Below are positions 17,900 through 38,078 of a stretch of DNA of 47,422 nucleotides, in pieces. How positions within the stretch are numbered: position 1 is the first letter of the stretch; every line of letters starts with the position of its first letter. Under the pieces are notes generated by a model that saw only the letters and a program-made list of their open reading frames with translations, was not told where the DNA came from and did no database searches. Both the position numbers and the translations under genes were made by a program. Source of the DNA: Salibacterium qingdaonense (GTDB lineage: Bacteria > Bacillota > Bacilli > Bacillales > Marinococcaceae); contig NZ_FOTY01000022.1 of assembly GCF_900114715.1 (NCBI RefSeq), forward strand, positions 1-47,422. The letters are read 5' to 3'.

Positions 17900-17908
17900 A
17901 AGATCAGG

Positions 17909-17941: not shown

Positions 17942-18045
17942 TGAAAGTAAACGCAGCAGTGATAAGAATACTATTGTGAAGGGGCGGCGCTTTTGGCTTT
18001 GATCCATTCAGGTGTGGATAAATATTCCAACCAGGGAGTTGTGAG

Positions 18046-19383: not shown

Positions 19384-19386
19384 CCT

Positions 19387-20202: not shown

Positions 20203-20275
20203 GAAGGTTTTGCATAAAAGTCTTGGTGTTTTGTGTAGAATCTTGTATGATAAGAGAAAAAGGATGTTTGTATGC

Positions 20276-20593
20276 ATGATAGGGATACGCATACGCCGCG
20301 AACGGCATGAACAGGCATTGACTATAGCAGAACTGGCAGAGAAAGCGGGAATCAAAGAAAGGACTCTGAGGGCAGTGGAGGAAGGAGAGCAGGATGATCC
20401 GACACGTTCTGAACTGGAGCATGTTGCAGCAGCACTCCAGGTCCCGGTATCTTCTATTGCTCCCGCGGAAGAAAACCTTGAAGCAGAGTGGCTGGATCTG
20501 GTGCAGACCGCGATGCATTCAGATATAACAAAAGAGCAGTTCAGAAAGTATATCCTGGATGAAAAAGAAAAGCGTCAGAAAAAAGAAAAATAG
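20276..20593 (+). CDS. SinR-like XRE-family regulator
   Basis: A 105-residue DNA-binding protein. The N-terminal helix-turn-helix (residues 1-62; MIGIRIRRERHEQALTIAEL) has the SinR-type start. The C-terminal segment (about 73-100; EWLDLVQTAMHSDITKEQFRKYI) matches the SinR/SinI dimerisation element. The ATG at 20276 gives the family start; an ATG at 20264 adds four residues and abuts the AAAAAGG site. No sinI, tapA or eps gene is nearby, so the partner and targets are unknown. It may act in biofilm or metabolic switching, by family analogy only. Confidence 0.8.
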   Translation: MIGIRIRRERHEQALTIAELAEKAGIKERTLRAVEEGEQDDPTRSELEHVAAALQVPVSSIAPAEENLEAEWLDLVQTAMHSDITKEQFRKYILDEKEKRQKKEK

Positions 20594-20600
20594 ACAAAAG

Positions 20601-20626
20601 AGCCGGCGGATAAAGCCGGCTTTTTT
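20601..20626 (+). terminator. Terminator of the SinR-like gene
   Basis: AGCCGGC (20601-20607) pairs with GCCGGCT (20615-20621), followed by a T run. Confidence 0.85.
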
Positions 20627-20647
20627 CGCAGGGTGGTGAATGAAACG

Positions 20648-21535
20648 ATGAAACGCATCAGCGATGAAAGTATCAGACAGGCCTTGGAACAAACAACGAG
20701 GCAGTATCTGGCCGGTCATTTAAAAAAACCACAGACCGTTCCGCATTTTCATGAGAACACGGTGGAAATTGGTGTTACTTCATATGATGAACCGGGTTCA
20801 GAAGCCCCGCATTATCACACACGGGCTGTGGAGTACATGTACTTGATGCGTGGAATGACTCAGTATGTAGACCTGGAAACAGAAGAGGAATACACTTTTT
20901 ATGCGGGCGATTTTTTTCAGATTACGCCGGGTACCGTGTATGCCCAGCGTTCCAGGCCGGGAACCGAACTGCTTTTTATTAAAACACCGCCCGGCAATGA
21001 CAAAGTCGTGGTGGAAGAGCCGGACGCGGTATTCACGTGGAGGCAGGCTTCTATTGAAACGACGCGCACCGATTACCTCAATGACCCTGAAGCGCCGCAT
21101 CCAAACTCGGTCAAACCCGCCTCAGCTGCGGCTCTCGTCAATGAAAACGAAGAGATCCTGCTTGTGAAACGCCGCGATAATGAAAAATGGGCGATGCCGG
21201 GTGGTACGATGGAAGAAGGGGAAAACCTTGCAGCATGTGTGAAGCGGGAAGTCAGGGAAGAAACCGGATATGACATCGAAGTGACCGGCATTGTCGGCAC
21301 CTACACCAATCCCGGGACCGTTATTGCTTACTCCGACGGGGAAGTACGGCGGGAATTTCTGATATTGTACGAAGCCCGTATTACAGGTGGAGAGATGCAG
21401 CTGGACGCAGAATCCAGTGATTACGCATGGGTATCTCCCTCGGATGCGGCCGCGCTCCCGATGACGGTTCCGCAGAGGCAGCGTGTGGAGGACGTGAAGT
21501 CGTTCCGGCAGTACGGCCTTCCTGCGTTCCGCTAA
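20648..21535 (+). CDS. Cupin-Nudix fusion hydrolase
   Basis: A 295-residue two-domain protein. Residues about 40-115 form a cupin (HYHTRAVEYMYLMRGMTQYVD, FYAGDFFQITPGTVYAQ) with metal-ligand-like His and Glu. Residues about 150-280 form a Nudix hydrolase with an intact box GTMEEGENLAACVKREVREE followed by TG. The Nudix half should cleave a nucleoside diphosphate linked to another moiety; the cupin may bind or modify the other half. The ATG at 20648 is preferred over a GTG at 20633 for position relative to GGGTGG. Substrate unknown. It is followed closely by convergent mtnU. Confidence 0.8.
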   Translation: MKRISDESIRQALEQTTRQYLAGHLKKPQTVPHFHENTVEIGVTSYDEPGSEAPHYHTRAVEYMYLMRGMTQYVDLETEEEYTFYAGDFFQITPGTVYAQRSRPGTELLFIKTPPGNDKVVVEEPDAVFTWRQASIETTRTDYLNDPEAPHPNSVKPASAAALVNENEEILLVKRRDNEKWAMPGGTMEEGENLAACVKREVREETGYDIEVTGIVGTYTNPGTVIAYSDGEVRREFLILYEARITGGEMQLDAESSDYAWVSPSDAAALPMTVPQRQRVEDVKSFRQYGLPAFR

Positions 21536-24122: not shown

Positions 24123-24905
24123 CTATGCCTCGACCGGGCACAGTACTTCAATGTTCCGGTTATCAAAGTCAGCCTGCTGCTTTTCGCTCGGCGGTTGGTC
24201 CGTGATGAAATAAGAAATGTCTGCAGTATCGGCGAAAGAAGAAATCGAACTTTTGCCGATCTTGGAATGATCCATTAAGGCAACAAGAGATGTCGCTTTT
24301 TTTACCATTTCTGTCTTTAATTCGACTTCATACACATTGAAATCCGTAAGACCGGTATCAAACGTAAAGCCATTACCGGAAGTGAACATGAGGTCAACGT
24401 AAACCTGTTCAAGGATGCTGGACCCGAGTATGCCTTCAAGTGAACTTGATCCCTTCCGTACGACCCCGCCTAGTAAAATGACAGTAAGATCCGGATTTTC
24501 CCTCAATTCGAGCGCAGTATAGATGCCGCTTGTGACGACCGTCAATTTCATGCTGGTCTGTTTTAACAATTTTGCAAGTTCAAGAGCCGTGGAGCTTGCA
24601 TCGAGCAGAATACACTGTCCCTCGTTAATAATGTCCAGTGCCTGCTGTGCAATAATTTCTTTTTCGTCTTTGTTCTGCTTTTCCCTGGTTGAAAAGGATA
24701 CTTCCTCCTCGGGGTAGGAAGGGAGAACCGCGCCGCCATGCGTACGCTTCAAGAGACCTTCTTTCTCCATTTCCTTTAAGTCAGACCGGAGGGTGACTTC
24801 TGATACGTCTAATTCTCCGGACAGCCGCTTCACCGTCAGTCGTCTTTCCGTGTTCAGGATTTCCATAATCTTATGGCGTCTTTCTGTTACGAACAGTTTG
24901 CCCAT
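24123..24905 (-). CDS. DeoR-family regulator
   Basis: A 260-residue regulator. The N-terminal helix-turn-helix has the DeoR signature (ERRHKIMEILNTERRLTVKRLSGELDVSEVTLRSDLKEME). The ISOCOT sugar-phosphate sensing domain (about 75-235) contains LLDASSTALELAKLL, VVTSGIYTALELREN and MFTSGNGFTFDTGLTD. It is first in a two-gene unit with the HPr-like protein. A 14-bp palindrome about 100 bp upstream suggests that the unit is under the neighbouring LacI protein. The ligand is probably a phosphorylated sugar of the adjacent pathway, by inference. Confidence 0.85.
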   Translation of the reverse strand: MGKLFVTERRHKIMEILNTERRLTVKRLSGELDVSEVTLRSDLKEMEKEGLLKRTHGGAVLPSYPEEEVSFSTREKQNKDEKEIIAQQALDIINEGQCILLDASSTALELAKLLKQTSMKLTVVTSGIYTALELRENPDLTVILLGGVVRKGSSSLEGILGSSILEQVYVDLMFTSGNGFTFDTGLTDFNVYEVELKTEMVKKATSLVALMDHSKIGKSSISSFADTADISYFITDQPPSEKQQADFDNRNIEVLCPVEA

Positions 24906-25001: not shown

Positions 25002-25015
25002 GTTAAACGTTTAAC
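25002..25015. promoter_or_regulatory. LacI-type operator upstream of deoR-hpr
   Basis: GTTAAACGTTTAAC is a perfect 14-bp palindrome with the central CG typical of LacI-family operators. It lies about 97 bp before deoR and just past the end of the lacI gene. The near-identical site at 26202 lies before the SDR operon. Confidence 0.7.
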
Positions 25016-25053: not shown

Positions 25054-26061
25054 TCAGCACCCACATGATTTTCGGGTGATTAGAAAATTTGGGATGTGAA
25101 CCGTTTTATCATAGCCGGGATTGTTAATTTTGTTCAGCAGCAGGTCAAATGCCGTTTGACCCAGTGTGTCAGGTGATAGACTGATGTTTGTGACGGGAGG
25201 ATCCATGATCGGTGCTGACGGGAAATCCCCGAAGCCGATCAGGGCCACTTCGTCAGGAATTTTTTTGTTCATTTCTTTTAATCCGGAAATCGTTCCAATA
25301 GTCATCAGGTCGCTTAGCACAAACAGAGCTGTGATTTCCTTGTTTTTCTCCAGAAGTGATTTGACAGCTTTGCGGCTCCCTTCCACCGTGGCATGCCCTT
25401 TTTCCAGATAATTTTCATTAAATGAAACCCCGTATTCTTCCAGTGCTTTTTTATAGCCGTTTATACGGTTTTTGGTAGGTGAAATGCCGCTGACCGCATA
25501 AATCAGACCGATATCACGATGTCCGTGCTGGAGTAGATGGATGGCAGCGTCATACCCGGCCTGGAAGTCATCCTGGGTCACAAAAGGGGAATGTTGAAAA
25601 GCCTCATGATAACGGCTTATCAATACAATAGGAAGCGAACTGTCGAGAAGTTCTTCGCTGTAGCTCTCGGATTCTTCCATTTTGGCTGAAGGGGACAAAA
25701 TAATGCCATCCACCATGTTGGAGTGCAGCAGTTTAAGAGTTTCCTGCTCATAATCGACGTCCTCGTCTGTGTTGATAAACAGAAGATTGTAACCCATTTC
25801 CTTGGCCCGCCTGCTGATACTGTTGATATAGCCGGTAACATAGGAGTCAGGAAAACTCGGCACGATCAGTCCTGCAGTTTTCGTGGACTGACTGCGCAGA
25901 TTTTTGGCAGAATAGTTCGGCACGTAATTATGTTTTCTAATAATCTCCATGATTTGATTGTATTTTTCAGAAGATATTTTTTTGGTGCCGTTTACTACGT
26001 GCGAAACGGTCGTCACAGAAACACCAACCTCTTCTGCAATCTTTTTCATTGTTACTTTCAT
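25054..26061 (-). CDS. LacI-family transcriptional regulator
   Basis: A 335-residue regulator. The N-terminal LacI helix-turn-helix and hinge (MKKIAEEVGVSVTTVSHVVNGTKKISSEK, YVPNYSAKNLRSQSTK) is followed by a periplasmic-binding-like effector domain (about 62-330) with GLIVPSFPDSYVTGYINSI and VALIGFGDFPSAPIMDPPVTNISL. The second Met (residue 5) is the common family start, but GGAGG is better placed for the first. It is divergent to the SDR-to-TRAP operon; the matching palindromes at 25002 and 26202 are its probable operators. Confidence 0.9.
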   Translation of the reverse strand: MKVTMKKIAEEVGVSVTTVSHVVNGTKKISSEKYNQIMEIIRKHNYVPNYSAKNLRSQSTKTAGLIVPSFPDSYVTGYINSISRRAKEMGYNLLFINTDEDVDYEQETLKLLHSNMVDGIILSPSAKMEESESYSEELLDSSLPIVLISRYHEAFQHSPFVTQDDFQAGYDAAIHLLQHGHRDIGLIYAVSGISPTKNRINGYKKALEEYGVSFNENYLEKGHATVEGSRKAVKSLLEKNKEITALFVLSDLMTIGTISGLKEMNKKIPDEVALIGFGDFPSAPIMDPPVTNISLSPDTLGQTAFDLLLNKINNPGYDKTVHIPNFLITRKSCGC

Positions 26062-26158: not shown

Positions 26159-26187
26159 TTGACAAAAGCGCTTTCACAATTTATTGT
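26159..26187 (+). promoter_or_regulatory. Promoter of the tetrose/TRAP operon with internal cre
   Basis: TTGACA (26159-26164), a 17-bp spacer and TATTGT (26182-26187). A cre-like site, CAAAAGCGCTTTCA (26163-26176), fills the spacer and matches the CcpA consensus at 12 of 14 positions, so carbon catabolite repression is likely. Confidence 0.65.
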
Positions 26188-26201: not shown

Positions 26202-26215
26202 GTTAAACGTTTTAC
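26202..26215. promoter_or_regulatory. LacI-type operator before the SDR gene
   Basis: GTTAAACGTTTTAC differs at one position from the perfect palindrome at 25002. It lies just downstream of the predicted transcription start, a position at which a repressor blocks elongation. Confidence 0.7.
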
Positions 26216-26312: not shown

Positions 26313-27071
26313 ATGAATTTTGAAGGACAGACAGCACTAGTTACGGGGGCAGCATCAAAACGCGGGATTGGCAGGGAGATTGCCAGACAGATCAGCCAAG
26401 GCGGTGGTACTGTAATCATCGCGGATATTAATCAGGAAATGCTCGAAGATGCCGTGAAAGATATAGACCAGGAAAAAGGCAGTGCCTACTCCGCAGTATT
26501 GGATGTTACGAGTGAAGAGAAAGTAAAGCAATCATTAGACGAATTAATCGGAAAATTCAGTAAAATAGATATTCTGGTGAACAATGCCGGCATCACACGG
26601 CCGACCGGAGTACTGGATATTTCGGAAGAGGAGTGGGACCTGATTTTCGATGTGAATATGAAAGGAACCTTCTTCGTCACCCAGCATCTGCTTCCTCATA
26701 TGAAGGAAAACAACTATGGAAGAATTGTGAATCTCAGTTCTGTTTCCGGTAAACGAGGCGGAGGGATATTTGGCGGCTCCCATTATTCGGCAGCCAAAGC
26801 AGCTGTTACAGGATTTTCTAAAGCGGTTGCACGTGAAATGGCTCCGTTTGGCATAACCAGTAATACAGTAGCTCCCGGATTAATAGCAACGGACATCACC
26901 GGCGGAATGCTGACCGATGAAAAAAAGAAACAGCTTGAATCTGACATTCCGGCAAAGCGCGCAGGTACGGTGGAAGATGTGGCTAATGCGGTAGCATTTC
27001 TGGCGACAAAAGAATCAAGCTACGTTACTGGCGAAGAAATCGATATAAATGGCGGTTCTCATATAGATTAA
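26313..27071 (+). CDS. Short-chain dehydrogenase/reductase
   Basis: A 252-residue classical SDR: cofactor motif TGAASKRGIGREIA (residues 10-23), Asp in IIADIN that favours NAD over NADP, NNAGIT near 90, catalytic Ser in NLSSVSG, then Tyr and Lys in HYSAAKAAV. It is the first gene of the operon and the likely oxidation step of an imported polyol or sugar to its ketose. The substrate cannot be read from sequence; a tetritol or threitol is proposed from context. GAGGAGG precedes the ATG. Confidence 0.87.
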   Translation: MNFEGQTALVTGAASKRGIGREIARQISQGGGTVIIADINQEMLEDAVKDIDQEKGSAYSAVLDVTSEEKVKQSLDELIGKFSKIDILVNNAGITRPTGVLDISEEEWDLIFDVNMKGTFFVTQHLLPHMKENNYGRIVNLSSVSGKRGGGIFGGSHYSAAKAAVTGFSKAVAREMAPFGITSNTVAPGLIATDITGGMLTDEKKKQLESDIPAKRAGTVEDVANAVAFLATKESSYVTGEEIDINGGSHID

Positions 27072-27113
27072 TTCTTTGGGGCAGACACTCCCGGAAGATA
27101 ATAGGGGGAAATG

Positions 27114-27926
27114 ATGAAACTAGGAATAAGCACTTACGCGTTCAGATGGGAAATCGACGAAATGGAACCTGGACTCGAGACAATCCTGCACTTTGTACGC
27201 AAAACAAAAGAGCTGGGTGGTGAAGTTTTTCAGATCTGCGACCACCCCCCGATTGAATATCTAGAAGAAGAGGAACTGCTGCAGGTAAAAGAGGCAGCTG
27301 ACAACGAGGGGATTGAGCTTGAAGCAGGAACGCAGGGCATTACGCCGGATCATATTCGAAAATATATTCACATTGCCCGCGTACTCGGTGCCAAAACGCT
27401 TCGCACCATGGTTCACAGCAAAGAAGCCCATCCTTCTATGGCAGAAGCGAAAGAATGGCTGAAAGACGTTGTTCCGGAGCTCGAAGAACACGGAGTGAAG
27501 ATAGCTCTTGAAACGTACGAGCCTATTAAAACGAGGGATCTCGTCGACATCGTGGAAGAGGTGGGAAGTCCGCATATCGGCATATGCCTGGACCCCGGCA
27601 ATTCCATCTCCGAGCTTGAGTTTCCAAGAGATGTGATCGACCAGGGAACAGCTTATGCGACTAATGTTCACCTGAAAGATTTCGTTTTCCAGCGCAAAGA
27701 TAAATCGATCGGCTTTGACTTAATCGGAGCCCCGGTTGGAGAAGGACAGCTGGACGTGGCCTATCTGCTGGAAAGCCTGCAGAAAGAAGACATACAGGTG
27801 AACGCCATCGTGGAATTGTGGCTTCCTTTTCAGGACAGTGTCCAGGAAACGATTGACGTGGAAGATGAATGGATGGAACGCAGCCTGAAAAACATGAAAA
27901 AGGCATTAAACCGGGAGCACGTTTAA
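27114..27926 (+). CDS. Sugar phosphate isomerase/epimerase (xylose isomerase-like TIM barrel)
   Basis: A 270-residue TIM-barrel protein. Probable metal ligands are Glu in ALETYE (about 143), Asp in ICLDPGN (about 176), His in NVHLKD (about 202) and Glu in VELWLPF (about 240). The family includes sugar epimerases and the tetrulose phosphate racemase EryC. Two ATGs (27111 and 27114) follow AGGGGGAA; the second has the better spacing. It sits between the SDR and DhaK, so a role in interconverting tetruloses or their phosphates is plausible but unproven. Confidence 0.8.
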   Translation: MKLGISTYAFRWEIDEMEPGLETILHFVRKTKELGGEVFQICDHPPIEYLEEEELLQVKEAADNEGIELEAGTQGITPDHIRKYIHIARVLGAKTLRTMVHSKEAHPSMAEAKEWLKDVVPELEEHGVKIALETYEPIKTRDLVDIVEEVGSPHIGICLDPGNSISELEFPRDVIDQGTAYATNVHLKDFVFQRKDKSIGFDLIGAPVGEGQLDVAYLLESLQKEDIQVNAIVELWLPFQDSVQETIDVEDEWMERSLKNMKKALNREHV

Positions 27927-27965
27927 CCGCTCCATTATTTTAACAAAGGAGCTTGAGACTTCCCT

Positions 27966-28958
27966 ATGAAAAAAATAATGAATCAGGAAGAAAACGTAAT
28001 GGAAGAGACACTTCAAGGATTTATTGACGCTTACGCTGCTGATTACGAACGGGTGGACGGCGTTAATGGAGTGATCTACCGGCATATGGATCCCGACAAG
28101 GTATCTGTGATCACAGGTGGAGGAGCCGGCCACGAACCATTGTTTGTCGGCTTTGCCGGAAAGGGTCTGGCCAGTGGTGCAGCGATGGGAAATGTCTTTG
28201 CCGCTCCGAACCCGGACACGATTCTTGAGGTAACCAAAGCCGTTGAAAACAAAGCCGGAGTTCTTTATATTTACGGCAATTATGCCGGCGATGTCCTCAA
28301 CTTTGATATGGCCTCTGAACTGGCCGAAATGGAGGACATTGAAACCAGAACGGTTAAAGTTTCAGACGACGTGGCATCTGCTTCGAAAGAAAACAAAGAA
28401 GAACGGCGCGGTATTGCCGGGGATGTTTTTGTTATCAAAGCCGCCGGAGCAGCAGCTGATGCCGGCTTGTCCCTTGATGAAGTAACACGGATAGCCGCAA
28501 AAGCAAACGAAAACACCCATTCTATCGGCGTGGGTATATCACCGGGAACCAGTCCTGGAAAAAAAGCACCGATGTTCGAACTGCCTGACAATCAAATTGA
28601 ATTTGGGCTTGGCATCCATGGCGAAAAAGGGATCCGCCGGGCAGAAATGATGAGTGCCGATGACTTGGCAGATGAAATGCTGGATCATCTGCTGGCCGAT
28701 GCGGCATTGGAAAGTGGGGATGAAGCAGTCATTCTACTGAATGGACTGGGATCCACCACGTTAATGGAACTGCTCATTGTCAATCAGAAAGTACACAAGG
28801 AGCTGCTCGCCAAAGGTATAACGGTGTACGACACGGATGTTAACAGCTACTGCACGACACAGGAAATGGGCGGATTTTCTATTACCATCCTCAAACTGGA
28901 TGAGGAACTGAAAACGTATTATGATGCACCTGCTCATTCCCCGTATTACCACAAATAA
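27966..28958 (+). CDS. dhaK: Dihydroxyacetone/erythrulose kinase subunit DhaK
   Basis: A 330-residue DAK1-domain protein. The start MKKIMNQEENVMEE fits the family; GGGAGHEPLFVGF and the covalent substrate-binding His in LGIHGEKGI (about 219) are intact, as are ASAAMGNVFAAP-like and IYGNYAGDVLNF segments. DhaK binds short ketoses such as dihydroxyacetone or erythrulose as a hemiaminal. Together with DhaL it makes the active kinase. No DhaM phosphotransfer partner is present, so ATP is probably the donor. In this locus an L-erythrulose kinase (LerK-like) role is favoured. Confidence 0.88.
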   Translation: MKKIMNQEENVMEETLQGFIDAYAADYERVDGVNGVIYRHMDPDKVSVITGGGAGHEPLFVGFAGKGLASGAAMGNVFAAPNPDTILEVTKAVENKAGVLYIYGNYAGDVLNFDMASELAEMEDIETRTVKVSDDVASASKENKEERRGIAGDVFVIKAAGAAADAGLSLDEVTRIAAKANENTHSIGVGISPGTSPGKKAPMFELPDNQIEFGLGIHGEKGIRRAEMMSADDLADEMLDHLLADAALESGDEAVILLNGLGSTTLMELLIVNQKVHKELLAKGITVYDTDVNSYCTTQEMGGFSITILKLDEELKTYYDAPAHSPYYHK

Positions 28959-28975
28959 CGAAATGGAGTGAAAAC

Positions 28976-29635
28976 ATGGAAAAGCAGACAATGAACCATT
29001 TAAGTGTTGATGATGTGAAACAAATGCTGCTTTACGTCGGTGAAACGATTACCGCCTCCAAAGACTATCTGGGACAAATCGATGCTGAAATTGGTGATGG
29101 GGATCATGGAACAGGCATGGCTACCGGAGCGGAAGCGTTTATGAAAAAACTGCGGGAGTCTGAATTTGAAACAATAAATGATGTCTTTAAAACGACCGGC
29201 ATGGAGATGATGAAATCAATGGGAGGGGCCTCCGGAATCATTTTCGGCACGATGTTCAGTGACGGCGTGAAGCAGTTGGAATCTAAATCTTCTATTGATC
29301 ATACCGGATTGGCGGATATTTTCAGAGGTTCTCTCGACTCTGTGAAAAAAAGAGGGAAGGCTGATGTCGGTGATAAAACAATGATTGATGCGCTGGATCC
29401 GGCAGTACAGACCCTGGAATCGGATGCCTCTAAGGAATGGACACTGACAGAGGTACTGAAACATGCAGAAGAAGCAGCGTGGAACGGCGTAGAGGAGACG
29501 AAACAGATTACTGCTAAACACGGCCGCGCGAAAACACTGGGAGAGCGCACGAAAGGATACCAGGATGCTGGTGCCACGTCGGTGTGGCTTATCTTCAAAA
29601 GCATGAGAGAATGGGTCGAACAACATGAAGGATAA
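28976..29635 (+). CDS. dhaL: Kinase ATP-binding subunit DhaL
   Basis: A 219-residue DAK2-domain protein. The Mg-ADP/ATP site shows IDAEIGDGDHGTGMA (three Asp residues near 38-45), GGASGIIFGTMF near 83-94, KADVGDKTMIDAL near 128-140 and RAKTLGERTKGYQDAGATS at the end. It works with DhaK and overlaps the next gene by 11 bp, showing tight translational coupling. GGAGTG precedes the ATG. Confidence 0.9.
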   Translation: MEKQTMNHLSVDDVKQMLLYVGETITASKDYLGQIDAEIGDGDHGTGMATGAEAFMKKLRESEFETINDVFKTTGMEMMKSMGGASGIIFGTMFSDGVKQLESKSSIDHTGLADIFRGSLDSVKKRGKADVGDKTMIDALDPAVQTLESDASKEWTLTEVLKHAEEAAWNGVEETKQITAKHGRAKTLGERTKGYQDAGATSVWLIFKSMREWVEQHEG

Positions 29636-30389
29636 TCAGAAAGTTTACATCGGGACAAATTGGAAGATGCATAAAACGATTAAAGAAGGAAGGGAGTACT
29701 GCCGGAAGCTGAAGCAGATCCGTGCAGACATTTCCGACCGTATTGAATTGTTTATCATTCCTCCTTTTACATCGCTGCATCCACTGCAGCAGGAGCTTGA
29801 AAGGACGGATATTAAACTGGGAGCGCAGAATATGCATGCCGAGCCTTACGGGCCTTATACCGGAGAAATTTCCCCGGTTATGCTGGAGGAGATAGGCGTG
29901 GATATTGTAGAGCTGGGTCATTCGGAACGAAGACAGCTGTTTAACGAAACAGACGACGCTGTACAAAAGAAGGCTGAAGCTGCTCTTTCCTATAACATGA
30001 CCCCTTTAATCTGCATCGGAGAAACCCTGGATGAAAAAGAAAAGGGGGTGGGCCGGGAAAAATTGAGCGCTCAATTGAAAATTTCTTTGGAAGGGCTTTC
30101 TTATGATGAGATTCAACGAGTCTGGATTGCTTATGAGCCGGTGTGGTCCATCGGTGAGCATGGAAAGCCGGCAACACCGGAACATGTGGAAGAATCCCAC
30201 CAATTTATCCGGGAGAAATTGAGAGAACAATTCGGCAGTGCGGCAGCAGACATTCCATTACTTTATGGAGGGAGTGTGAATCAACAGAACGTTAAGGAGT
30301 ACTTGCATGTAAATGAAGTGGACGGCTTGTTTATTGGAAGATCGGCTTGGGACTTATCCTCATTTGAAACTATTCTAAAGAGTATTTAA
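29625..30389 (+). CDS. tpiA: Triosephosphate isomerase paralogue, probable tetrulose-phosphate isomerase
   Basis: A 254-residue TIM barrel with catalytic Lys in NWKMHKT (residue 13-14), His in ELGHSERR (about 100) and Glu in IAYEPVWSIG (about 171). Loop 6 reads GEHGKPAT instead of the usual GTGK of glycolytic TIM, a difference I associate with the LerI/EryH group. The phosphate site YGGSVN is kept. Canonical tpiA normally lies with gapA-pgk-pgm; here it lies between dhaL and a TRAP transporter, which supports a role in converting L-erythrulose 1-phosphate to D-erythrulose 4-phosphate. A second triosephosphate isomerase is the alternative. Confidence 0.8.
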   Translation: MKDNQKVYIGTNWKMHKTIKEGREYCRKLKQIRADISDRIELFIIPPFTSLHPLQQELERTDIKLGAQNMHAEPYGPYTGEISPVMLEEIGVDIVELGHSERRQLFNETDDAVQKKAEAALSYNMTPLICIGETLDEKEKGVGREKLSAQLKISLEGLSYDEIQRVWIAYEPVWSIGEHGKPATPEHVEESHQFIREKLREQFGSAAADIPLLYGGSVNQQNVKEYLHVNEVDGLFIGRSAWDLSSFETILKSI

Positions 30390-30422
30390 CGATTATTCAG
30401 TAAAAAAGGGGAGACATTAATA

Positions 30423-31469
30423 ATGAAAAAAAATAGGTTATATGCAGGTATTGCAGCAGCTGTAGGTTTGACATTTGCCGCCGGATGTTCGGGTGGCAGT
30501 GAATCCGGGGGATCCGGAGAAACAAGCGGCGGAAATGGAGGAGGAAGCTCGGAAGAATCCGTAACCATTGAGTTTGGTCACGGTGCTGCTGAATCCAATT
30601 TGAGACACGAGGCGGTAATGGAATTCAAAAGTATGGTTGAAGAAAACTCCGACTCTCTAACGGTGGAAGTCTATCCGAATGAACAGGTTGGAAGCGAATC
30701 AGAAATGATTGAAAACGTATCTCTGAATGATCTGGATATGGCTCTTGCCGGTGCCGGCATATTCACACAGTACAATGACCTTATAGGAGCAAGTGCGCTG
30801 CCTTACCTTTTCGATGGGTATGAACATGCCTGGTCTGTACTGGATGGTCCAATGGGAGACCGTATGGCTGAACCGCTGCTTGAAGATAATATTCGTATTC
30901 TCAGCTATTTTGAAAATGGTATCCGCCATATTACAAACAGCCAGCGTCCGATTGAAACTCCGGATGACCTTGATGGATTAAGTATTCGTACACCGGAAGC
31001 AGACGTATCGATCGACACTCTTGATGCGCTCGGGGCCAACGCCACTCCGATGGCATTCGGCGAATTGTATCTGGGACTTCAGCAGGGCACGGTAGATGGA
31101 CAGGAAAACCCTCTTGCCAACATTCATGCGGCCAGTTTTTATGAAGTGCAGGACTACCTTTCCCTGACAGGCCATCAGTACAATGCGCTGCCACTGGCTA
31201 TTTCCGATGAGTTCTGGCAGTCTCTTTCCGGTGACCAGCAGGAGGTAGTGCAGCAGGCTGCCAGCGATGCGAGTCAGTATCACCGTGATGCCAACCAGGA
31301 GAATGAAGAACAGCTGTTGACTGATCTGGAAGAGCAGGGAATGGAAATTAACGAACCGGAAAAAGAACCATTTAGAGAAGCAACGCAGTCAGTGTACGAC
31401 AAGTATGAAGACGTATACGGATCTGAATTTATGGATGAACTGCAGCAGGCTGTAGAAGACGCCAGATAG
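30423..31469 (+). CDS. dctP: TRAP transporter solute-binding lipoprotein
   Basis: A 348-residue DctP-family protein. The signal peptide ends in the lipobox TFAAGCSGG (Cys at about 22), followed by a Gly/Ser/Glu-rich linker. The binding domain has FGHGAAESNLRHEAVMEFKSMVEE, NEQVGSESEMIENVSLND, the substrate-anchoring Arg in LSIRTPEADV and FGELYLGLQQGTVDGQENPLANI. It captures an organic acid or polyol outside the cell for DctQM. The ligand is unknown; the adjacent pathway suggests a C4 polyol or sugar. Confidence 0.92.
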   Translation: MKKNRLYAGIAAAVGLTFAAGCSGGSESGGSGETSGGNGGGSSEESVTIEFGHGAAESNLRHEAVMEFKSMVEENSDSLTVEVYPNEQVGSESEMIENVSLNDLDMALAGAGIFTQYNDLIGASALPYLFDGYEHAWSVLDGPMGDRMAEPLLEDNIRILSYFENGIRHITNSQRPIETPDDLDGLSIRTPEADVSIDTLDALGANATPMAFGELYLGLQQGTVDGQENPLANIHAASFYEVQDYLSLTGHQYNALPLAISDEFWQSLSGDQQEVVQQAASDASQYHRDANQENEEQLLTDLEEQGMEINEPEKEPFREATQSVYDKYEDVYGSEFMDELQQAVEDAR

Positions 31470-31475
31470 AACGTT

Positions 31476-31508
31476 CCGGGAGAAGAGAAAACCCTTCTCC
31501 TCTCCCGG
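31476..31508 (+). promoter_or_regulatory. Intercistronic hairpin between dctP and dctQ
   Basis: CCGGGAGA (31476-31483) pairs with TCTCCCGG (31501-31508), with an inner AAG/CTT extension. No T run follows, so it probably protects the 3' end of dctP mRNA and attenuates rather than stops transcription, giving more binding protein than permease. Confidence 0.6.
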
Positions 31509-31563
31509 TTCCTTTCATCATGACTGGCAGCAATATCCTTAAGGGAGAAAGTAAGGGATAGAT

Positions 31564-32049
31564 ATGAAAATCCTTCGTTTTCTGGATAGATACATCGAAG
31601 AGTATTTGTTAATTATTACGACAGTAGCGATTGTTTTTACTCTTTTCTTTCAAATCGTCATGCGCTATGTTTTCAGTAACTCACTTCCGTGGACAGAGGA
31701 ACTGGCTCGTTATCTATTTATCTGGTCGGTGTTTATCGGTGTGAGCTACGCGGTGAAAAATAATAAGCATTTGAAAATCGACACGTTGTCGATGGTGTTT
31801 AAGAGAAAAGGAAAACTTGTCATACGAACAGTATCCAATGTGCTTTTTCTTGTTTTTTCCGTTGCCGCTGTGTACTACGGATTCAATACGATGGACTCGG
31901 TTGCACGGACAACACCCGGATTAAACATTTCCTATGCGTGGGTGTATGCGTCGACTCTTGTCGGCTTTACGCTTACAAGCATCAGAATTATACAGGATCA
32001 ATGGAAGGTTCTATCGCCAAGACACACGAACGAGGTTGATGAAGAATGA
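31564..32049 (+). CDS. dctQ: TRAP transporter small membrane subunit
   Basis: A 161-residue DctQ-family protein with four membrane helices (about 15-38, 50-68, 88-110, 128-147) and the family motif LPWTEELARYLFIWSVFIGVSYAVKNNKHLKIDTL. It bridges the binding protein and DctM. The dctM start overlaps its end by 4 bp (ATGA), so the two are translated together. Confidence 0.92.
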   Translation: MKILRFLDRYIEEYLLIITTVAIVFTLFFQIVMRYVFSNSLPWTEELARYLFIWSVFIGVSYAVKNNKHLKIDTLSMVFKRKGKLVIRTVSNVLFLVFSVAAVYYGFNTMDSVARTTPGLNISYAWVYASTLVGFTLTSIRIIQDQWKVLSPRHTNEVDEE

Positions 32050-33320
32050 CATCACTAATTTTATTTGGAGTACTTGCCTTATTACTTATACTGACCGTGC
32101 CGATTGGTATAGCTCTTGGCTTGGCTTCCTTTATTACCGTGTTATTCATACCGCCGATTTCAGCAGACTCTCTGTTTCGTGACCTGGTCACCTCTGTTGA
32201 TTCATTTCCGCTGCTGGCCGTTCCGTTCTTTATTTTAGCCGGAGAGTTGATGAGCGGAGGCGGCATATCCAGGCGTCTGATGGATCTCGGTAAAGTACTG
32301 GTCGGTAACATTACCGGTGGTATGGCCGTTGTAGCTGTCCTGACTTCCATGTTTTTCGCAGCTATTTCAGGATCCGGGCCGGCGACAGTAGCAGCTGTCG
32401 GAGGCTTAATGATACCCACTATGATTGAAGAAGGTTATGACAAAAAGTTCTCTACCGCGGTGGTAGTATCCGCCGGTTCACTTGGCATTATTATTCCGCC
32501 GAGTATCCCGATGATTATGTACGGGGTATCAGCTGGTGTGTCGGTAGGAGATATGTTTTTAGCGGGTATTATACCAGGGATTTTTGTAGGTGGAATGCTT
32601 GTCGCATGGTGTTATATTTATTCCAAAAAGAATGGGTACAGAGGACTTGGAGAAACGTTTTCTTTCAAGAAACTCCTCATTCATGTGAATCGGGCAAAAT
32701 GGGCGCTGCTGACTCCTATTATTATACTTGGAGGGATTTACAGCGGGGTTTTCACACCTACGGAAGCAGCCATCATTGCGGTGGTATACGCATGGTTTGT
32801 AAGCATGTTTGTCTATCGTGAACTCCGGGTTAAAGACCTGCCGGGAATTATCACGAAAGCATCATTAACCAGTGCCACCATCATTATCGTTATTGCAGCG
32901 GCTACGGCCTTCGGGCAGATATTAACCTTGGAACAGATACCGAATAAGGTCGCCGCATTTTTAACAAATATTTCTTCCAATTCTATCATTATTGTCCTTC
33001 TGATATGCGTTCTACTATTGATAGTAGGAATGTTTATGGACACCGTGGCGGCTATTGTCATCCTGACGCCGATTCTGTTTCCGGTCATAACGCAGCTTGG
33101 TATCCACCCTATTCATTTTGGTGTCCTGATGATCACCAATTTGTCTATCGGATTTATAACGCCGCCGCTGGGTGTGAACCTGTTTGTTGGATCCGGTATA
33201 ACAGGTCTCAGTATCGGAGTGATATCACGCGCGGTTATTCCATTTTTCTTTGCGATGCTGCTTAGTTTATTCATCATTGTCGTCATACCGGAACTCTCCC
33301 TTTTCCTTCTGTCCGAATAA
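32046..33320 (+). CDS. dctM: TRAP transporter large permease subunit
   Basis: A 424-residue DctM-family membrane protein of about 12 helices. It drives sodium-coupled uptake of the DctP ligand. Motifs: SFPLLAVPFFILAGELMSGGGISRRLMDLG, AAISGSGPATVAAVGGLMIPTMIEEGYDKKF, GSLGIIIPPSIPMIMYGV, FTPTEAAIIAVVYAW and GFITPPLGVNLFV. Length and order are normal. It is the last gene before the first strong terminator of the locus. Confidence 0.94.
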   Translation: MTSLILFGVLALLLILTVPIGIALGLASFITVLFIPPISADSLFRDLVTSVDSFPLLAVPFFILAGELMSGGGISRRLMDLGKVLVGNITGGMAVVAVLTSMFFAAISGSGPATVAAVGGLMIPTMIEEGYDKKFSTAVVVSAGSLGIIIPPSIPMIMYGVSAGVSVGDMFLAGIIPGIFVGGMLVAWCYIYSKKNGYRGLGETFSFKKLLIHVNRAKWALLTPIIILGGIYSGVFTPTEAAIIAVVYAWFVSMFVYRELRVKDLPGIITKASLTSATIIIVIAAATAFGQILTLEQIPNKVAAFLTNISSNSIIIVLLICVLLLIVGMFMDTVAAIVILTPILFPVITQLGIHPIHFGVLMITNLSIGFITPPLGVNLFVGSGITGLSIGVISRAVIPFFFAMLLSLFIIVVIPELSLFLLSE

Positions 33321-33349
33321 ACCTCTTTTGAAACATAAAGAGGTTTTTA
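33320..33349 (+). terminator. Terminator after dctM
   Basis: AACCTCTTT (33320-33328) pairs with AAAGAGGTT (33337-33345), followed by TTTATTTG. It separates the transporter operon from rpiB. Confidence 0.8.
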
Positions 33350-33373
33350 TTTGAAAATAAACGAAAGTATTAA

Positions 33374-33402
33374 TTGACAAACGAAAACTATAAATATAAA
33401 AT
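33374..33402 (+). promoter_or_regulatory. Promoter of rpiB
   Basis: TTGACA (33374-33379), 17 bp, TAAAAT (33397-33402): close to SigA consensus. It lies directly after the dctM terminator and 32 bp before the rpiB start, so rpiB can be made independently of the LacI-controlled operon. Confidence 0.75.
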
Positions 33403-33433
33403 GAAATTAAATAAAAGAGAGGGGAATAAAAAA

Positions 33434-33892
33434 ATGAAGGTAGCACTCGGAAGCGACCACAACGCATTTTATTTAAAAGAAGACGTGAAACAATATATTC
33501 AGGAACTGGGCCATGAGGTGGAAGACTACGGATGCCACAGCTGCGACGCGGTTGATTATCCGGATGTGGCGTTTGATGTGGCCCAGGATATTTCAGAGGA
33601 AAAAGCAGACCGCGGCATTCTGATCTGCGGCACGGGCATTGGAGTTGCGATATCGGCCGGCAAAGTACCGGGCATCCGGGCTGCACTTTGTCATGATACG
33701 TATTCGGCAGAAAGAGCCCAGTTAAGTAACGACGCTCAGATCTTGACGATGGGCGCCCAGATTATCGGTCCGGAAGTGGCAAAGAAAGTAGTTGAAAGTT
33801 ACCTCGGCGTTACATTCAACGGAGGAAGTTCCGGCCGGAAAGTACAGAAGATCATAGATAAAGAAAAAGAATACGGAGCAAAAGCACAATAG
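33434..33892 (+). CDS. rpiB: RpiB-family sugar-phosphate isomerase
   Basis: A 152-residue RpiB/LacAB-family isomerase: Asp9 in GSDHNAF, the catalytic Cys in ICGTGIGVAISAGK (about 65-78) and CHDTYSAERAQLSNDAQILTMGAQ. RpiB enzymes isomerise ribose 5-phosphate, and the EryI subgroup makes erythrose 4-phosphate from D-erythrulose 4-phosphate. The neighbouring dhaKL and TIM paralogue point to the latter. The ATG at 33434 follows GAGAGGGG; the upstream 20 residues of the frame overlap the promoter. Confidence 0.9.
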   Translation: MKVALGSDHNAFYLKEDVKQYIQELGHEVEDYGCHSCDAVDYPDVAFDVAQDISEEKADRGILICGTGIGVAISAGKVPGIRAALCHDTYSAERAQLSNDAQILTMGAQIIGPEVAKKVVESYLGVTFNGGSSGRKVQKIIDKEKEYGAKAQ

Positions 33893-33921
33893 AGTACTCG
33901 TTGTATCTCTTAGTGGTTGTC

Positions 33922-33955
33922 ATAACCGTTGGGATAGCCTGACGGTTATTCTTTT
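33922..33955 (+). terminator. Terminator between rpiB and glpX
   Basis: ATAACCGT (33922-33929) pairs with ACGGTTAT (33942-33949), followed by TCTTTTT. The 8-bp stem is modest, so partial readthrough into glpX is likely. Confidence 0.65.
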
Positions 33956-33974
33956 TCAAAAAAGGAGGGGTTGG

Positions 33975-34931
33975 ATGCAGTCGTTAGCGATGTCATTTTT
34001 AAATGTCACCCAGGAAGCAGCTATCTCTGTTTTTCCCTACATTGGCAAAGGCGGCAAAATACTTGCCGATCATAAAGCTACAGAAGCGATGAGGGGAACG
34101 CTTCATTCACTGAATGCCCATTCAAGAGTGGTGATCGGAGAAGGAGAAATGGATAATGCTCCGATGCTTTATATCGGGGAAGAACTTGGAGCATCTGAGG
34201 ATCCCAAAGTCGATATTGCAGTAGACCCCATTGATGGAACGACGCTTGTATCAAAAGGGCAGGGAAATGCCATTGCTGTATTAGCCGCTGCTGAGCGTGG
34301 ATGTCTGCTGCATGCACCGGACATGTATATGGATAAAATAGCCGTCGGCCCAAAAGCCAAAGGCAGGATAGATGTCAGTGCTTCTATAGAAGCAAACGTA
34401 ACAGCGGTTTCAGAGGCACTTGGGAAGTCCGTTTCCCAGTTGAATGTGCTGGTGCAGGATCGAGAACGGCATCAATCCCTGATTCAGGCCATCCAGCACA
34501 TGGGAGCCAGTGTCACGTTATTTTCGGATGTGGATATTACCGGCATCGTTGCCACAGCAGTAGAGGGAAAAGACGTTGATATGCTTGTTGGAACAGGCGG
34601 AGCACCGGAGGGCGTGATTGCAGCTGTTGCAATGAGAAGCCTGGGCGGTGATTTTCAGGGAAGACTGCGGCCTGCAGACAAAGAACAGTATAACCGCTGC
34701 CGGGATATGGGAATCGCCGATCCGGACCGTTATTTGACGCTTGATGATATCGTTTCCACGGATCAGTGCTTTTTTGCCGCAACTGGAATTACAGACGGCC
34801 CGCTGTTAAAAGGTGTCAAGTCAATCAATGAAGAGATGCTGCAGTCCCACACTTTCCTGGCAGTGGACCGGCAGTACCACGTCGTTGAATCCGTCCATGT
34901 AAAATCACAGCTTTCCGGAAATGCGTTGTAA
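33975..34931 (+). CDS. glpX: Class II fructose-1,6-/sedoheptulose-1,7-bisphosphatase
   Basis: A 318-residue GlpX-family phosphatase. Metal and phosphate motifs are clear: [18 protein letters not shown] (about 52-69), [25 protein letters not shown] (about 79-103) and [17 protein letters not shown]. It hydrolyses the C1 phosphate of fructose bisphosphate, and some members act on sedoheptulose bisphosphate. Placement next to transketolase in a tetrose locus suggests the second activity. AAAGGAGG precedes the ATG. Confidence 0.92.
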
Positions 34932-34972
34932 TCGTGGTTACCCAAATGAATCGTAGAAAGGAGAATCATTAC

Positions 34973-36976
34973 GTGACATCATCCACTTTGAAAAACGTAG
35001 AACAGGAAACCATACAAACAATCCGGATGCTATCTGTCGACAGTGTCGAAAAAGCACAGTCCGGACACCCCGGCATGCCGATGGGGGCAGCTCCTATGGC
35101 GTACGTGCTGTGGTCTCGTTTTCTTAAAAAGAACCCTGGTAACCCATCCTGGAAGGACCGGGACCGCTTTATCTTATCAGCGGGCCACGGATCGATGCTG
35201 CAGTACAGCCTGCTGCATCTATTCGGCTATGACGTGACGATGGATGATTTGAAATCATTCAGGCAGTGGGACAGTAAAACACCGGGGCATCCGGAAGTTG
35301 GTGATACCCCGGGCATCGAAGCAACAACCGGTCCGCTTGGGCAGGGCATAGCGATGAGTGTGGGAATGGCACTGGCAGAAAGTCATCTGGCTTCTGTATA
35401 CAACCGGCCGGATTTTCCTGTGGTGGACCACTGGACGTACGCGATCTGCAGTGACGGAGACCTTATGGAAGGAATTTCTCATGAAGCTGCGGCGCTGGCG
35501 GGTCACCTTGGACTCGGAAAGCTCGTCTGGTTATATGATTCCAATGATATTTCACTCGACGGAGACCTCGACAAAGCTTATTCTGATGACACGCAGAAGC
35601 GCTTTGAAAGTTACGGGTGGCAGGTACTCTACGTGGAAGACGGCAATGATACCGAAGCGGTCGAAACAGCATTACAGGAAGCGAAGAAGAACACGGTGCA
35701 GCCGACATTGATTGAAGTGAAAACCATCATCGGTTTCGGAGCACCAACAAAAGGCGGGTCATCCGCTTCTCACGGCGCTCCATTGGGTGAAGAAGAAATA
35801 GAAGAGGTGAAGAAAGCCTACGGCTGGACACAAGAAGAGCCGTTTTACGTACCGGAAACGGTTCGGGATCATATGTCTTCCCTGCAGCAGCAAGCTGAAA
35901 AAGAAGAAGAAGCGTGGAACCGGATGATGCAGGAATACCGCACAAAATATCCGGAGCTGTATGAAAGCTGGGAACAGGGGCATGCCGAGATCAGTGAAAA
36001 CCTATGGGATTCCATTTTTCAAGAGCTGGAAGTGGAAGGCAAAAAAGCCACCAGAGGCGCCTCCGGTGAAGTGATTCAGTCACTTGCTTCTCATCTGAGA
36101 TCCGTTGTGGGAGGCTCCGCTGATCTTGCCTCTTCCAATAAAACGATGATCGATGCAGAAGAGGATATGAAAAAAGGCGATTACAGCGGAAGAAATATAT
36201 GGTTCGGTGTTAGAGAATTCGGCATGGGAGCAGCATTAAACGGTATGGCATTGCACGGGGGACTGCATATGTACGGAGGAACCTTTCTGACATTCTCCGA
36301 TTACATGCGTTCAGCCATCCGGACGTCCGCGATTATGAAAAATCCGGTGACGTATGTGTTCACCCACGACAGCATAGCTGTCGGTGAAGATGGTCCGACA
36401 CATCAGCCGGTGGAACATATTGCTTCGCTTCGCGCTATGCCGAATGTGAACGTACTCCGTCCTGCCGATGCTAAAGAAACCGCTGCTGCCTGGAAAACAG
36501 CGTTATCGAATCAATCACAGCCGTCTGCATTAATCTTTTCAAGGCAGAAGCTTCCATCCCTTCCGCTTTCTCTGAAAGAAGTGGAAGAAGGCGTGTCCAG
36601 GGGGGCCTATATCGTCTCGCAATCAGACAGTCCCGACCTGGTTCTGCTTGCTTCCGGATCCGAAGTGTCTCTCGCGCTGGAAGCTGCGGGCCGGCTTAAA
36701 GAAGAAGGATTCCGTCCGAATGTTGTAAGTATGCCGTCCTGGGACTTGTTTGAGCAACAGACCGATGAGTATAAGAAGTCGGTGATACCACCGGATATAA
36801 AAAAGCGGGCAGCGTTTGAAATGGCAAGCCCGCTCGGCTGGCACAAGTACACAGGGGATTATGGATACGTATTCGGTATTGAAACATTCGGTGCTTCTGC
36901 TCCGGGGGATACAGTAGTGAAAGAATATGGATTCACTGCAGAAAATGCGGTGAAGCAGTTGAAGCGGGTATTTTAA
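34973..36976 (+). CDS. tkt: Transketolase
   Basis: A 667-residue TPP enzyme that moves two-carbon units between ketose and aldose phosphates. Motifs in order: [12 protein letters not shown] (catalytic His about 30), [28 protein letters not shown], the TPP motif [18 protein letters not shown] to [21 protein letters not shown], and [27 protein letters not shown] in the pyrimidine domain. A GTG at 34973 is chosen because AAAGGAG (34957-34963) lies 9 nt upstream. It is probably co-transcribed with glpX and can use erythrose 4-phosphate made by the upstream genes. Confidence 0.94.
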
Positions 36977-37160: not shown

Positions 37161-38078
37161 TCACAATTGGAATTTTTCGTTGAGATAATAATTCTGGATA
37201 AAAGATAAAAAGGTTTCTCCCGGGAGTGTTAGCTTATCCTTACTATACACGGCGTAAAAGAAACGCCGGAGTCGGATTCCGTTGATTGGAATCTCGCGGA
37301 GCGTGCCGAGTTCCAGCTCTTTTTGAATGGCATTTCTTGAGATAATCATAATACCGAGGCCGGATTCCACGGCGGACTTAATCGATTCCGTATGCTCGAG
37401 TTCCATGATGACGTCCAGTTTTTCCGGATAAAGGCCGTTATTCTTGAGATGCTGTTCCACCACCTGTCTTGTACCGGATCCCGGCTCCCTCATAATAATT
37501 GGAAATTCAAACAGCTCCTCAGGCGCGATCGTCTGTTTCTGAGGGGGGACCGGGGAAGAAGCGGAGGTACCTGTTGTCACAACCAGTTCATCTTCCAAAA
37601 AGGCAAGTTGATCGTAATCAGGGTATGACTTGGTGGACTCGATAAATCCGAGATCAATATCATCATTGCCCAGATGTTCCATAATCTGTTCTGAATTATA
37701 TACTTTCAGTTTCATCTGGATATTTGGATATTCTTTGCGGAACTGTCCCAGCACGTAAGGAAGAATATGTTCTCCGATGGTAAGGCTGGCCCCTATATCC
37801 AAATCGCCGTGAATGGTTTCAGATAAACTGTCCAGTTCCTTTTCTGTCTGTTTGACAAGTGAAAAAATCTGATCCGCATACTTATATAAAATCTCACCGG
37901 AAGGAGTTAACTTTACACTTTTTGTTGTCCGTTCAAACAGTGTTGCCTCCAGGGACTGCTCGAGGTGTTTGATCTGCATGCTGACTGTCGGCTGGGCCAG
38001 GTGCAGGATTTTTGCTGTTTCAGAAAAACTTTGATGGTCTGCCAGGATATAAAAGGCTCTCAAATGTTCCAGGTTCAT
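37161..38078 (-). CDS. LysR-family transcriptional regulator (CysL-like)
   Basis: A 305-residue LysR protein. The N-terminal winged helix reads MNLEHLRAFYILADHQSFSETAKILHLAQPTVSMQIKHLE, followed by an effector domain from about 92 (LDIGASLTIGEHILPYVLGQFRKEYPNI, MREPGSGTRQVVEQHL, VESGLGIMIISRNAI). The last motifs resemble CysL/YwfK-type regulators of sulfur or anabolic genes, but no sulfur gene is nearby. It is divergent to a second LysR gene, so cross-regulation is possible. Target unknown. Confidence 0.85.
   Translation of the reverse strand: MNLEHLRAFYILADHQSFSETAKILHLAQPTVSMQIKHLEQSLEATLFERTTKSVKLTPSGEILYKYADQIFSLVKQTEKELDSLSETIHGDLDIGASLTIGEHILPYVLGQFRKEYPNIQMKLKVYNSEQIMEHLGNDDIDLGFIESTKSYPDYDQLAFLEDELVVTTGTSASSPVPPQKQTIAPEELFEFPIIMREPGSGTRQVVEQHLKNNGLYPEKLDVIMELEHTESIKSAVESGLGIMIISRNAIQKELELGTLREIPINGIRLRRFFYAVYSKDKLTLPGETFLSFIQNYYLNEKFQL

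Follow-up and report, generated by a model that had tools for sequence, protein, structure and literature searches.

A candidate sugar-acid catabolic cluster in Salibacterium qingdaonense, predicted to lead through L-erythrulose to erythrose 4-phosphate

The window analyzed here, a stretch of 47,422 nucleotides from Salibacterium qingdaonense (contig NZ_FOTY01000022.1), contains eleven plus-strand genes that run in one direction from position 26313 to 36976. They encode a short-chain dehydrogenase/reductase (SDR), an AP_endonuc_2 barrel protein, DhaK, DhaL, a triosephosphate isomerase (TIM) homologue, the DctP, DctQ and DctM components of a tripartite ATP-independent periplasmic (TRAP) transporter, an RpiB homologue, GlpX and a transketolase. 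We consider it rather probable that this locus catabolizes a five-carbon sugar acid through L-erythrulose to erythrose 4-phosphate. An earlier, sequence-only reading had described the same genes as a candidate tetritol or tetrulose locus ending in erythrose 4-phosphate; the end point and the tetrulose route hold up, whereas the neutral substrate is not supported.

In the proposed pathway, DctPQM would import a C5 sugar acid, NAD(P)-dependent oxidation by the SDR would yield a beta-keto acid, and the metal-dependent barrel enzyme would decarboxylate this product to L-erythrulose. DhaK-DhaL would then convert L-erythrulose to L-erythrulose 1-phosphate, the TIM homologue would convert this to D-erythrulose 4-phosphate, and the RpiB homologue would yield D-erythrose 4-phosphate, which transketolase and GlpX (with aldolase/transaldolase in relatives) would move into the pentose and hexose phosphates. 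All enzyme activities named here are predictions from sequence: the steps from L-erythrulose to erythrose 4-phosphate are suggested by active-site fingerprints and gene neighborhood, and we infer the import, oxidation and decarboxylation steps, including their order and the substrate.

The named genes form a real and complete cluster, as previously claimed, with gaps of at most 113 bases and two overlaps between them. Ten products were assigned by family (SDR, PF13561; barrel, AP_endonuc_2 PF01261; Dak1, Dak2, TIM, DctP, DctQ, DctM, LacAB_rpiB and FBPase_glpX), and the transketolase scores 904 bits against the TIGR00232 cut-off of 682. A LacI gene diverges from the SDR gene, with a DeoR gene beyond it, and both are also part of the cluster. 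All eleven genes occur in two other Bacillales, Alteribacillus (L003), where DeoR is present too, and Bacillus taeanensis (L005), where RpiB is placed elsewhere and no DeoR was found in the locus; because two other Bacillales hold the whole set, the cluster is no chance assembly. The source genome measures 3.5 Mb and is 99% complete, and the nearest named relatives of the window DctP are from Bacillales such as Alteribacillus and Gracilibacillus.

Alignment was used to compare active-site FINGERPRINTS of the TIM, RpiB and DhaK proteins. Among 46 aligned TIMs, loop 8 reads GALVGGASL in all 26 canonical members and G[LM]F[IL]GR in the 20 non-canonical ones, including that of the window (GLFIGR); in 15 of these 20, loop 6 is furthermore one residue longer (IGxxGxP, against the canonical IGTGK type). 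The alignment excluded window duplicates (L002, L079, L081, L101), loci refetched as L131-L134 (L102-L105) and matches under 180 aligned residues. Members of the non-canonical set include the TIM of an ery-type operon from Shinella (L097; FGGY kinase, GlpD-like enzyme, barrel protein, RpiB and TIM), which was assigned as the EryH reference by operon context, and the TIMs of plasmid loci L098, L099 and L100. In the tree, the two sets separate with a local support of 1.0, and the window TIM groups with the non-canonical one. The variant is rare: among the matches listed from 398 Bacilli genomes, five genomes (the source genome G000 and G291, G285, G241 and G064) reach at least 49% identity, and the remaining matches are at or below 46%. 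The prediction that the cluster TIM is an EryH/LerI-type tetrulose-phosphate isomerase is thus supported.

A second marker lies in the RpiB homologue. The position of the E. coli ring-opening residue, His99, is occupied by Ser in 18 of 26 RpiB rows, that of the window included, and every one of these 18 sits in a locus with an EryH/LerI-type TIM or a DhaK-type kinase. Ser is also found in three more RpiBs that adjoin DhaKL genes (L141, L142, L143). The histidine is kept in eight rows, which represent seven distinct genes (L078 and L137 are the same gene): the genome's other RpiB and six near split-transketolase loci. The count left out L002, L079, L084, L101, L103, L105 and matches under 90 residues. 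In the split-transketolase-type loci concerned (L006, L010, L013, L015, L018, L020), the linked RpiB keeps the ring-opening His and so would perform a different isomerase job. PMC4783025 ascribes ring opening to His99 of E. coli RpiB and reports a 26-fold decrease in kcat for H99N. The Ser-type RpiBs of L097 and L098 clear the curated D-erythrulose-4-phosphate isomerase model (254 and 246, cut-off 240), and therefore the reference for the Ser type is fixed. Since a furanose ring cannot form from tetrulose 4-phosphate, loss of the histidine fits a D-erythrulose 4-phosphate isomerase, and would make the cluster RpiB a putative member of the EryI/DerI type.

The kinase carries a third marker. Lys104 of E. 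coli DhaK is replaced by Gly in all 13 cluster-type kinases chosen for comparison (L004, L030, L054, L060, L094 and L133 were left out), and is Lys in the dihydroxyacetone kinases 4lrx, 3ct4 and 1un9 of the PDB, which we take to be those of E. coli, L. lactis and C. freundii, as well as in the genome's own DhaKLM copy. The window DhaK falls below the TIGR02363 DhaK cut-off (362 vs 406), whereas the genome's other DhaK exceeds it (434), and the cluster contains no DhaM gene. These features support the cluster DhaKL as a predicted LerK-like L-erythrulose kinase. Outside the cluster, the genome contains a second TIM (contig C25), a second RpiB and a second DhaK (both on C39) and two more transketolases above the curated cut-off; the second DhaK (L135) shares its operon with genes for DhaL and for an EIIA-man (DhaM-type) protein. 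The cluster TIM, RpiB, DhaK and transketolase are therefore paralogues rather than housekeeping copies, and the TIM and RpiB are not the sole copies in the genome. Residue markers and module context together support LerK-, EryH/LerI- and, more tentatively, EryI/DerI-type roles for DhaKL, TIM and RpiB, in line with the parallels drawn earlier, and the three fingerprints support well an end point at erythrose 4-phosphate reached via a tetrulose. Three residue-level markers would thus distinguish tetrulose enzymes, which are usually annotated under glycolytic or pentose-phosphate enzyme names, from the true bearers of those names.

The front end looks like that of an acid system. DctP aligns best with 4P47, whose carboxylate-binding residues are given in PMC11668362 as Arg152, Arg173 and Asn213. 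These correspond to R168, R189 and N229 in the window protein, and over 90 DctP rows (L002, L079, L087, L101 and matches under 200 residues dropped) R189 is retained in 90, R168 in 88 and N229 in 87. The triad is thus common to the family, and would indicate an acid (or sulfonate or phosphate) without indicating which. The SDR is 63% identical to that of a TRAP and split-transketolase locus (L012), 48% to its counterparts in L091 and L093, alphaproteobacterial loci that combine TRAP, split transketolase and barrel genes, and 31% to the L099 enzyme, the one GolD/DthD-annotated (threitol-type) SDR compared; its GolD/DthD score of 185 is under the cut-off of 286. Among the plasmid matches listed, the five best SDR rows (H86-H90) and H99, six of the top 14, directly adjoin a barrel gene of the same family as the window's, as judged by coordinates.

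The barrel enzyme is rare. In the 398 Bacilli genomes it matched, at 1e-20, only in the source genome and in G323, where the 32% identical protein is not part of such a cluster and has neighbors that look by eye like MFS (major facilitator superfamily) and RidA genes. It is 58-60% identical to its counterparts in L003/L005 and 36-37% identical to proteins of Erwinia and Pantoea (L089/L090), whose gene lies between a LerI-type TIM and a PGDH_C-annotated protein; the Erwinia neighbor matches PGDH_C and, weakly, KARI_N. E134, D161, H187 and E235 are invariant and are, presumably, metal ligands by analogy with D-tagatose 3-epimerase. No NCBIfam model above cut-off names the enzyme. A role as EryC was considered and dropped, as BLAST found no similarity to the EryC-type protein of L097.

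Several points count against the proposed route. The window RpiB scores 153 on the rhizobial DerI model NF051858 (cut-off 240) and 155 on the generic rpiB model (cut-off 139), and the window TIM also clears its generic model (141 vs 131). The arginines of the DctP triad can bind sulfonates or phosphates in TRAP binding proteins. The nearest folds to the barrel enzyme are D-tagatose/psicose 3-epimerases (template-modeling score about 0.73), and the fold model (mean predicted local distance difference test score 80, three sequences) does not distinguish an epimerase from a decarboxylase. Its decarboxylation is proposed from homology: because we take the PGDH_C protein beside the Erwinia/Pantoea barrel gene to be the D-apionate oxidoisomerase, we presume the barrel enzyme to be OiaC-like, a 3-oxo-isoapionate decarboxylase yielding L-erythrulose. 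The substrate identity is likewise a proposal. Furthermore, front ends can mix, as in the halomonad locus L045, where TRAP, SDR and barrel genes stand beside an ABC (ATP-binding cassette) importer and an alcohol dehydrogenase (ADH).

For the substrate itself, isoapionate (2-C-hydroxymethyl tetronate), a branched C5 acid, is the best-fitting candidate, though a tentative and doubtful one, that would explain three sister designs with one substrate. In the window design, SDR and barrel decarboxylase would lead from isoapionate to L-erythrulose. In loci L009 and L036, the same TRAP, TIM, RpiB, GlpX and transketolase are accompanied by a transaldolase-family gene, PdxA and a DUF1537-type kinase; kinase action followed by PdxA-type oxidative decarboxylation would turn a C5 acid directly into a tetrulose phosphate, and from isoapionate this would be L-erythrulose 1-phosphate, which fits the finding that the stretches read of these two loci contain no DhaK or DhaL match (nor any SDR match). 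The L036 kinase is under the cut-offs for D-threonate (209 vs 450), 3-oxo-tetronate and 3-oxo-isoapionate kinases. The third design is that of 25 Bacillales loci (L004, L006-L008, L010-L029, L033), which combine SDR and TRAP either with a transketolase N-half, at roughly 30-35% identity, or with weak similarity to the two halves; two adjacent half genes are present in the five read gene by gene (L004, L006, L007, L012, L015). Here, SDR and split transketolase would cleave the 3-oxo acid, giving xylulose 5-phosphate and hydroxypyruvate. A branched acid of the isoapionate type is the most economical choice, because its 3-oxo acid could be decarboxylated to L-erythrulose and could also serve transketolase as a donor in the sister loci, a function for which a linear 3-keto pentonate is unsuited. 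A linear L-pentonate is possible as the substrate of the window locus. To our knowledge, isoapionate is known only as its 3-oxo derivative within apionate breakdown. If the acid reading is true, the locus would add growth substrates of a class not described before and, probably, a novel decarboxylase.

None of the 25 split-transketolase loci gave a barrel match, TIM or DhaKL matches were confined to L004, and most of the loci have LacI. They may represent a two-enzyme catabolic route for an unassigned acid. Their transketolase N-halves are 35-37% identical to E. coli AptA, a range that does not discriminate.

The proposed use of a C5 acid has to be weighed against other substrates. A neutral tetritol (threitol or erythritol) or erythrulose might enter via TRAP, with the SDR forming erythrulose, the barrel enzyme acting as an erythrulose 3-epimerase and DhaKL, TIM and RpiB leading to erythrose 4-phosphate. 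The back end is indeed the same as that of tetritol-type loci, and the nearest barrel folds are ketose 3-epimerases. However, the carboxylate triad of DctP, the distance of the SDR from the threitol-type enzyme and the dissimilarity of the barrel enzyme to EryC oppose the neutral substrate previously suggested, and the ABC and dehydrogenase loci L099, L132 and L133 have no barrel gene in the stretch read (four barrel queries gave no match there, nor in the stretches read of L141, L143, L009 and L036). We regard this explanation as unlikely.

Considerably less probable is a C4 acid, in which threonate or erythronate would yield dihydroxyacetone, DhaKL would form dihydroxyacetone phosphate, the TIM would be an ordinary one, and GlpX, RpiB and transketolase would serve gluconeogenesis. 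D-threonate and D-erythronate pathways use a DUF1537 kinase and PdxA, a pair that takes threonate to dihydroxyacetone phosphate, and L009/L036 place such a pair with the same TRAP, TIM and RpiB. Yet a C4 acid would leave the tetrulose-type isomerases without a substrate, ordinary TIM, RpiB and DhaKLM copies exist elsewhere in the genome, and the L036 kinase scores too low for the D-threonate kinase model. Where these pathways have a kinase followed by an oxidative decarboxylase, the window uses a dehydrogenase, a barrel enzyme and then a kinase. Dihydroxyacetone use, which had been named as the main alternative, was set aside as the principal explanation because a separate DhaKLM exists and the EryI-type RpiB would be left without a role. 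Hardly credible at all is D-apiose, with the barrel enzyme as apiose isomerase, DhaKL as apulose kinase and the transketolase acting on apulose 4-phosphate. Barrel enzyme, kinase and transketolase do co-occur, but the E. coli SE15 apiose cluster, by comparison with which apiose was discarded, has an FGGY (apulose) kinase, a split AptAB transketolase and an ABC importer, has no DHAK, TIM or RpiB annotated, and shares neither its kinase type nor its split transketolase with the window; a TRAP system with an acid triad also speaks against it, and the SDR and tetrulose-type TIM and RpiB would have no role.

The back end follows an established logic in a group new to it, and the front end is probably novel. 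The tetritol pathway EltD-LerK-LerI-DerI of Mycolicibacterium smegmatis, reportedly described by Huang in 2015, resembles the locus in its erythrulose kinase, its TIM-type and RpiB-type tetrulose-phosphate isomerases and its erythrose 4-phosphate end point. The window differs in that EltD and the sugar importer of M. smegmatis give way to a TRAP system, a barrel enzyme and an SDR from another branch, and in that GlpX and transketolase are linked. PMC10733421 describes EltD, LerK, LerI, DerI and EryC and calls GlpX an identified sedoheptulose bisphosphatase, and PMC12780249 also names the M. smegmatis tetritol-pathway enzymes. The erythritol pathway of Brucella/Ochrobactrum is given as EryA-B-C-H-I in PMC10190533. 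It shares EryH-type TIM and EryI-type RpiB active sites with the window (reference, Shinella L097), but the window lacks the FGGY kinase, GlpD-like EryB and ABC importer, and its barrel protein is not EryC. Carter is said in 2018 to have described a branch from D-apionate via 3-oxo-isoapionate to L-erythrulose; the window shares with this branch, as seen in L089/L090, the barrel enzyme, DhaK-family kinase, TIM and RpiB, whereas it has an SDR for the PGDH_C protein (proposed ApnO), TRAP for MFS, and split DhaK/DhaL. No PGDH_C-type apionate oxidoisomerase is among the cluster genes, although PGDH_C is present in L089. Dak1 and Dak2 domains are shared with DhaKLM systems, from which the window differs by the missing DhaM, the Gly at Lys104 and the sub-cut-off DhaK score. 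No title or abstract start in the literature searched describes this gene combination, which is weak evidence of novelty as subscription papers were poorly covered.

The DhaK-DhaL-TIM-RpiB back end is a reusable module, an interchangeable block predicted to lead from L-erythrulose to erythrose 4-phosphate that stands in Bacillota behind TRAP, MFS and ABC front ends. Loci L132 (G285) and L133 (G241) hold an ABC importer, zinc ADH, DhaK, DhaL, TIM, DeoR, RpiB, a transaldolase-family protein and transketolase; of the two, L132 alone has GlpX. The ABC ATPase and ADH domains were checked in L132, and the L133 ADH was assigned by 87% identity to that of L132, an enzyme that we assume to resemble EltD; no NCBIfam equivalog is above cut-off for it. 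In L131, MFS, 3HCDH and another barrel protein precede DhaKL-TIM. The halomonad loci L045, L054 and L060 combine TRAP, SDR, DhaK-type kinase, TIM, RpiB and transketolase, to which L045 adds a barrel protein, an ABC ATPase and, with 51% identity to the L132 enzyme, an ADH fragment. L141 and L143 contain a dehydrogenase, MFS, DhaKL and RpiB, with no TIM annotated or found by tblastn, as would be expected if the product were D-erythrulose, which needs no LerI step.

Further arrangements were seen in these loci. L141 (7396-14248, Pseudalkalibacillus plasmid) has alcohol dehydrogenase, MFS, RpiB, DhaK, DhaL, GlpX and DeoR, and is a probable D-erythrulose version. L142 (9001-15662, Enterococcus gilvus megaplasmid) has a Ser-type RpiB, fructose-6-phosphate aldolase, DhaM, DhaK, DhaL and split transketolase, with a TIM-family protein 34% identical to the window TIM, and may be read as a phosphotransferase system (PTS)-donor version of the tetrulose locus. 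Beside its full cluster, L003 contains another copy of the DhaK-DhaL-TIM set as well as one more TRAP system (1-2863 and 17658-20941).

The LacI gene is associated with a 14-bp LacI-type operator, GTTAAWCGWTTWAC, whose only exact occurrences in the 3.5 Mb genome are the two given in Table 1; the reversed control pattern has zero matches there. With one mismatch allowed, the window contains four strand-matches where 0.13 would be expected, and all four fall at these two places. An exact operator lies within 450 bases upstream of lacI in 18 of the 20 fetched loci with a LacI relative above 250 bits (L087 left out; L025 and L033 are one assembly), the exceptions being L003 and L004. Because the same operator precedes lacI in these loci, the window and the split-transketolase loci probably respond to a similar inducer. 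LacI would sense the substrate or a derivative and control the front end. DeoR probably controls the back-end (RpiB-GlpX-Tkt) promoter; DeoR-type genes with 49-67% identity lie near the same module in L003, L009, L036, L131, L132 and L133, and AAACGAAAG, a tentative DeoR site candidate, is upstream of rpiB in five of 13 regions compared (window, L009, L131, L132, L141). A sequence within the promoter-like site before sdr, AAAAGCGCTTTCA, resembles a catabolite-responsive element (cre) and suggests carbon catabolite repression. A terminator-like hairpin lies 3' of DctM. These signals are weak, with 18 promoter-like matches in the region against 18.5 in shuffles and 16 terminator-like matches against 12.5. 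The most likely RpiB start is the ATG at 33434, preferred because the TTG at 33374 opens a promoter-like TTGACA.

Table 1. Positions of the cluster genes and associated signals in the window
Feature	Position	Strand	Basis or remark
DeoR-family regulator	24123..24905	-	NCBIfam DeoR-type matches
LacI-type operator GTTAAACGTTTAAC	25002..25015	.	upstream of deoR, perfect palindrome
LacI-family regulator	25054..26061	-	proposed front-end regulator; relatives in 20 loci
Promoter-like TTGACA-17-TATTGT	26159..26187	+	cre-like AAAAGCGCTTTCA inside at 26164-26176
LacI-type operator GTTAAACGTTTTAC	26202..26215	+	before sdr, just downstream of -10
SDR dehydrogenase, proposed sugar-acid 3-dehydrogenase	26313..27071	+	
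AP_endonuc_2 barrel enzyme, proposed OiaC-like decarboxylase yielding L-erythrulose	27111..27926	+	presumed metal ligands E134, D161, H187, E235
DhaK-type subunit, predicted LerK-like L-erythrulose kinase	27966..28958	+	Gly at E. coli DhaK Lys104
DhaL-type ATP-binding kinase subunit	28976..29635	+	Dak2 domain
TIM homologue, predicted EryH/LerI-type tetrulose-phosphate isomerase	29625..30389	+	loop 8, tree
TRAP substrate-binding protein DctP	30423..31469	+	carboxylate triad R168, R189, N229
TRAP small permease DctQ	31564..32049	+	family match
TRAP large permease DctM	32046..33320	+	family match
Promoter-like TTGACA-17-TAAAAT (11 of 12)	33374..33402	+	possible second transcript from rpiB
RpiB homologue, predicted EryI/DerI-type D-erythrulose-4-phosphate isomerase	33434..33892	+	Ser at His99 position
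GlpX phosphatase (fructose/sedoheptulose bisphosphatase)	33975..34931	+	family match
Full-length transketolase	34934..36976	+	TIGR00232

Rfam and tRNA scans of the whole window gave no matches. No zinc ADH is among the cluster genes, and two dehydrogenase genes outside the cluster were considered as tetritol enzymes and rejected: a zinc ADH (42486-43478), which is only 24% identical to the L132 ADH, and a second SDR (43601-44365), with identities of 37% to the SDR of the cluster and of 32% to the DthD-type one. A PTS EIICBA gene lies on the minus strand at 12105-13988, and a LysR gene at 37161-38078 scores 278 on the NCBIfam model of the selenium-metabolism-associated LysR family, whose cut-off is 250.

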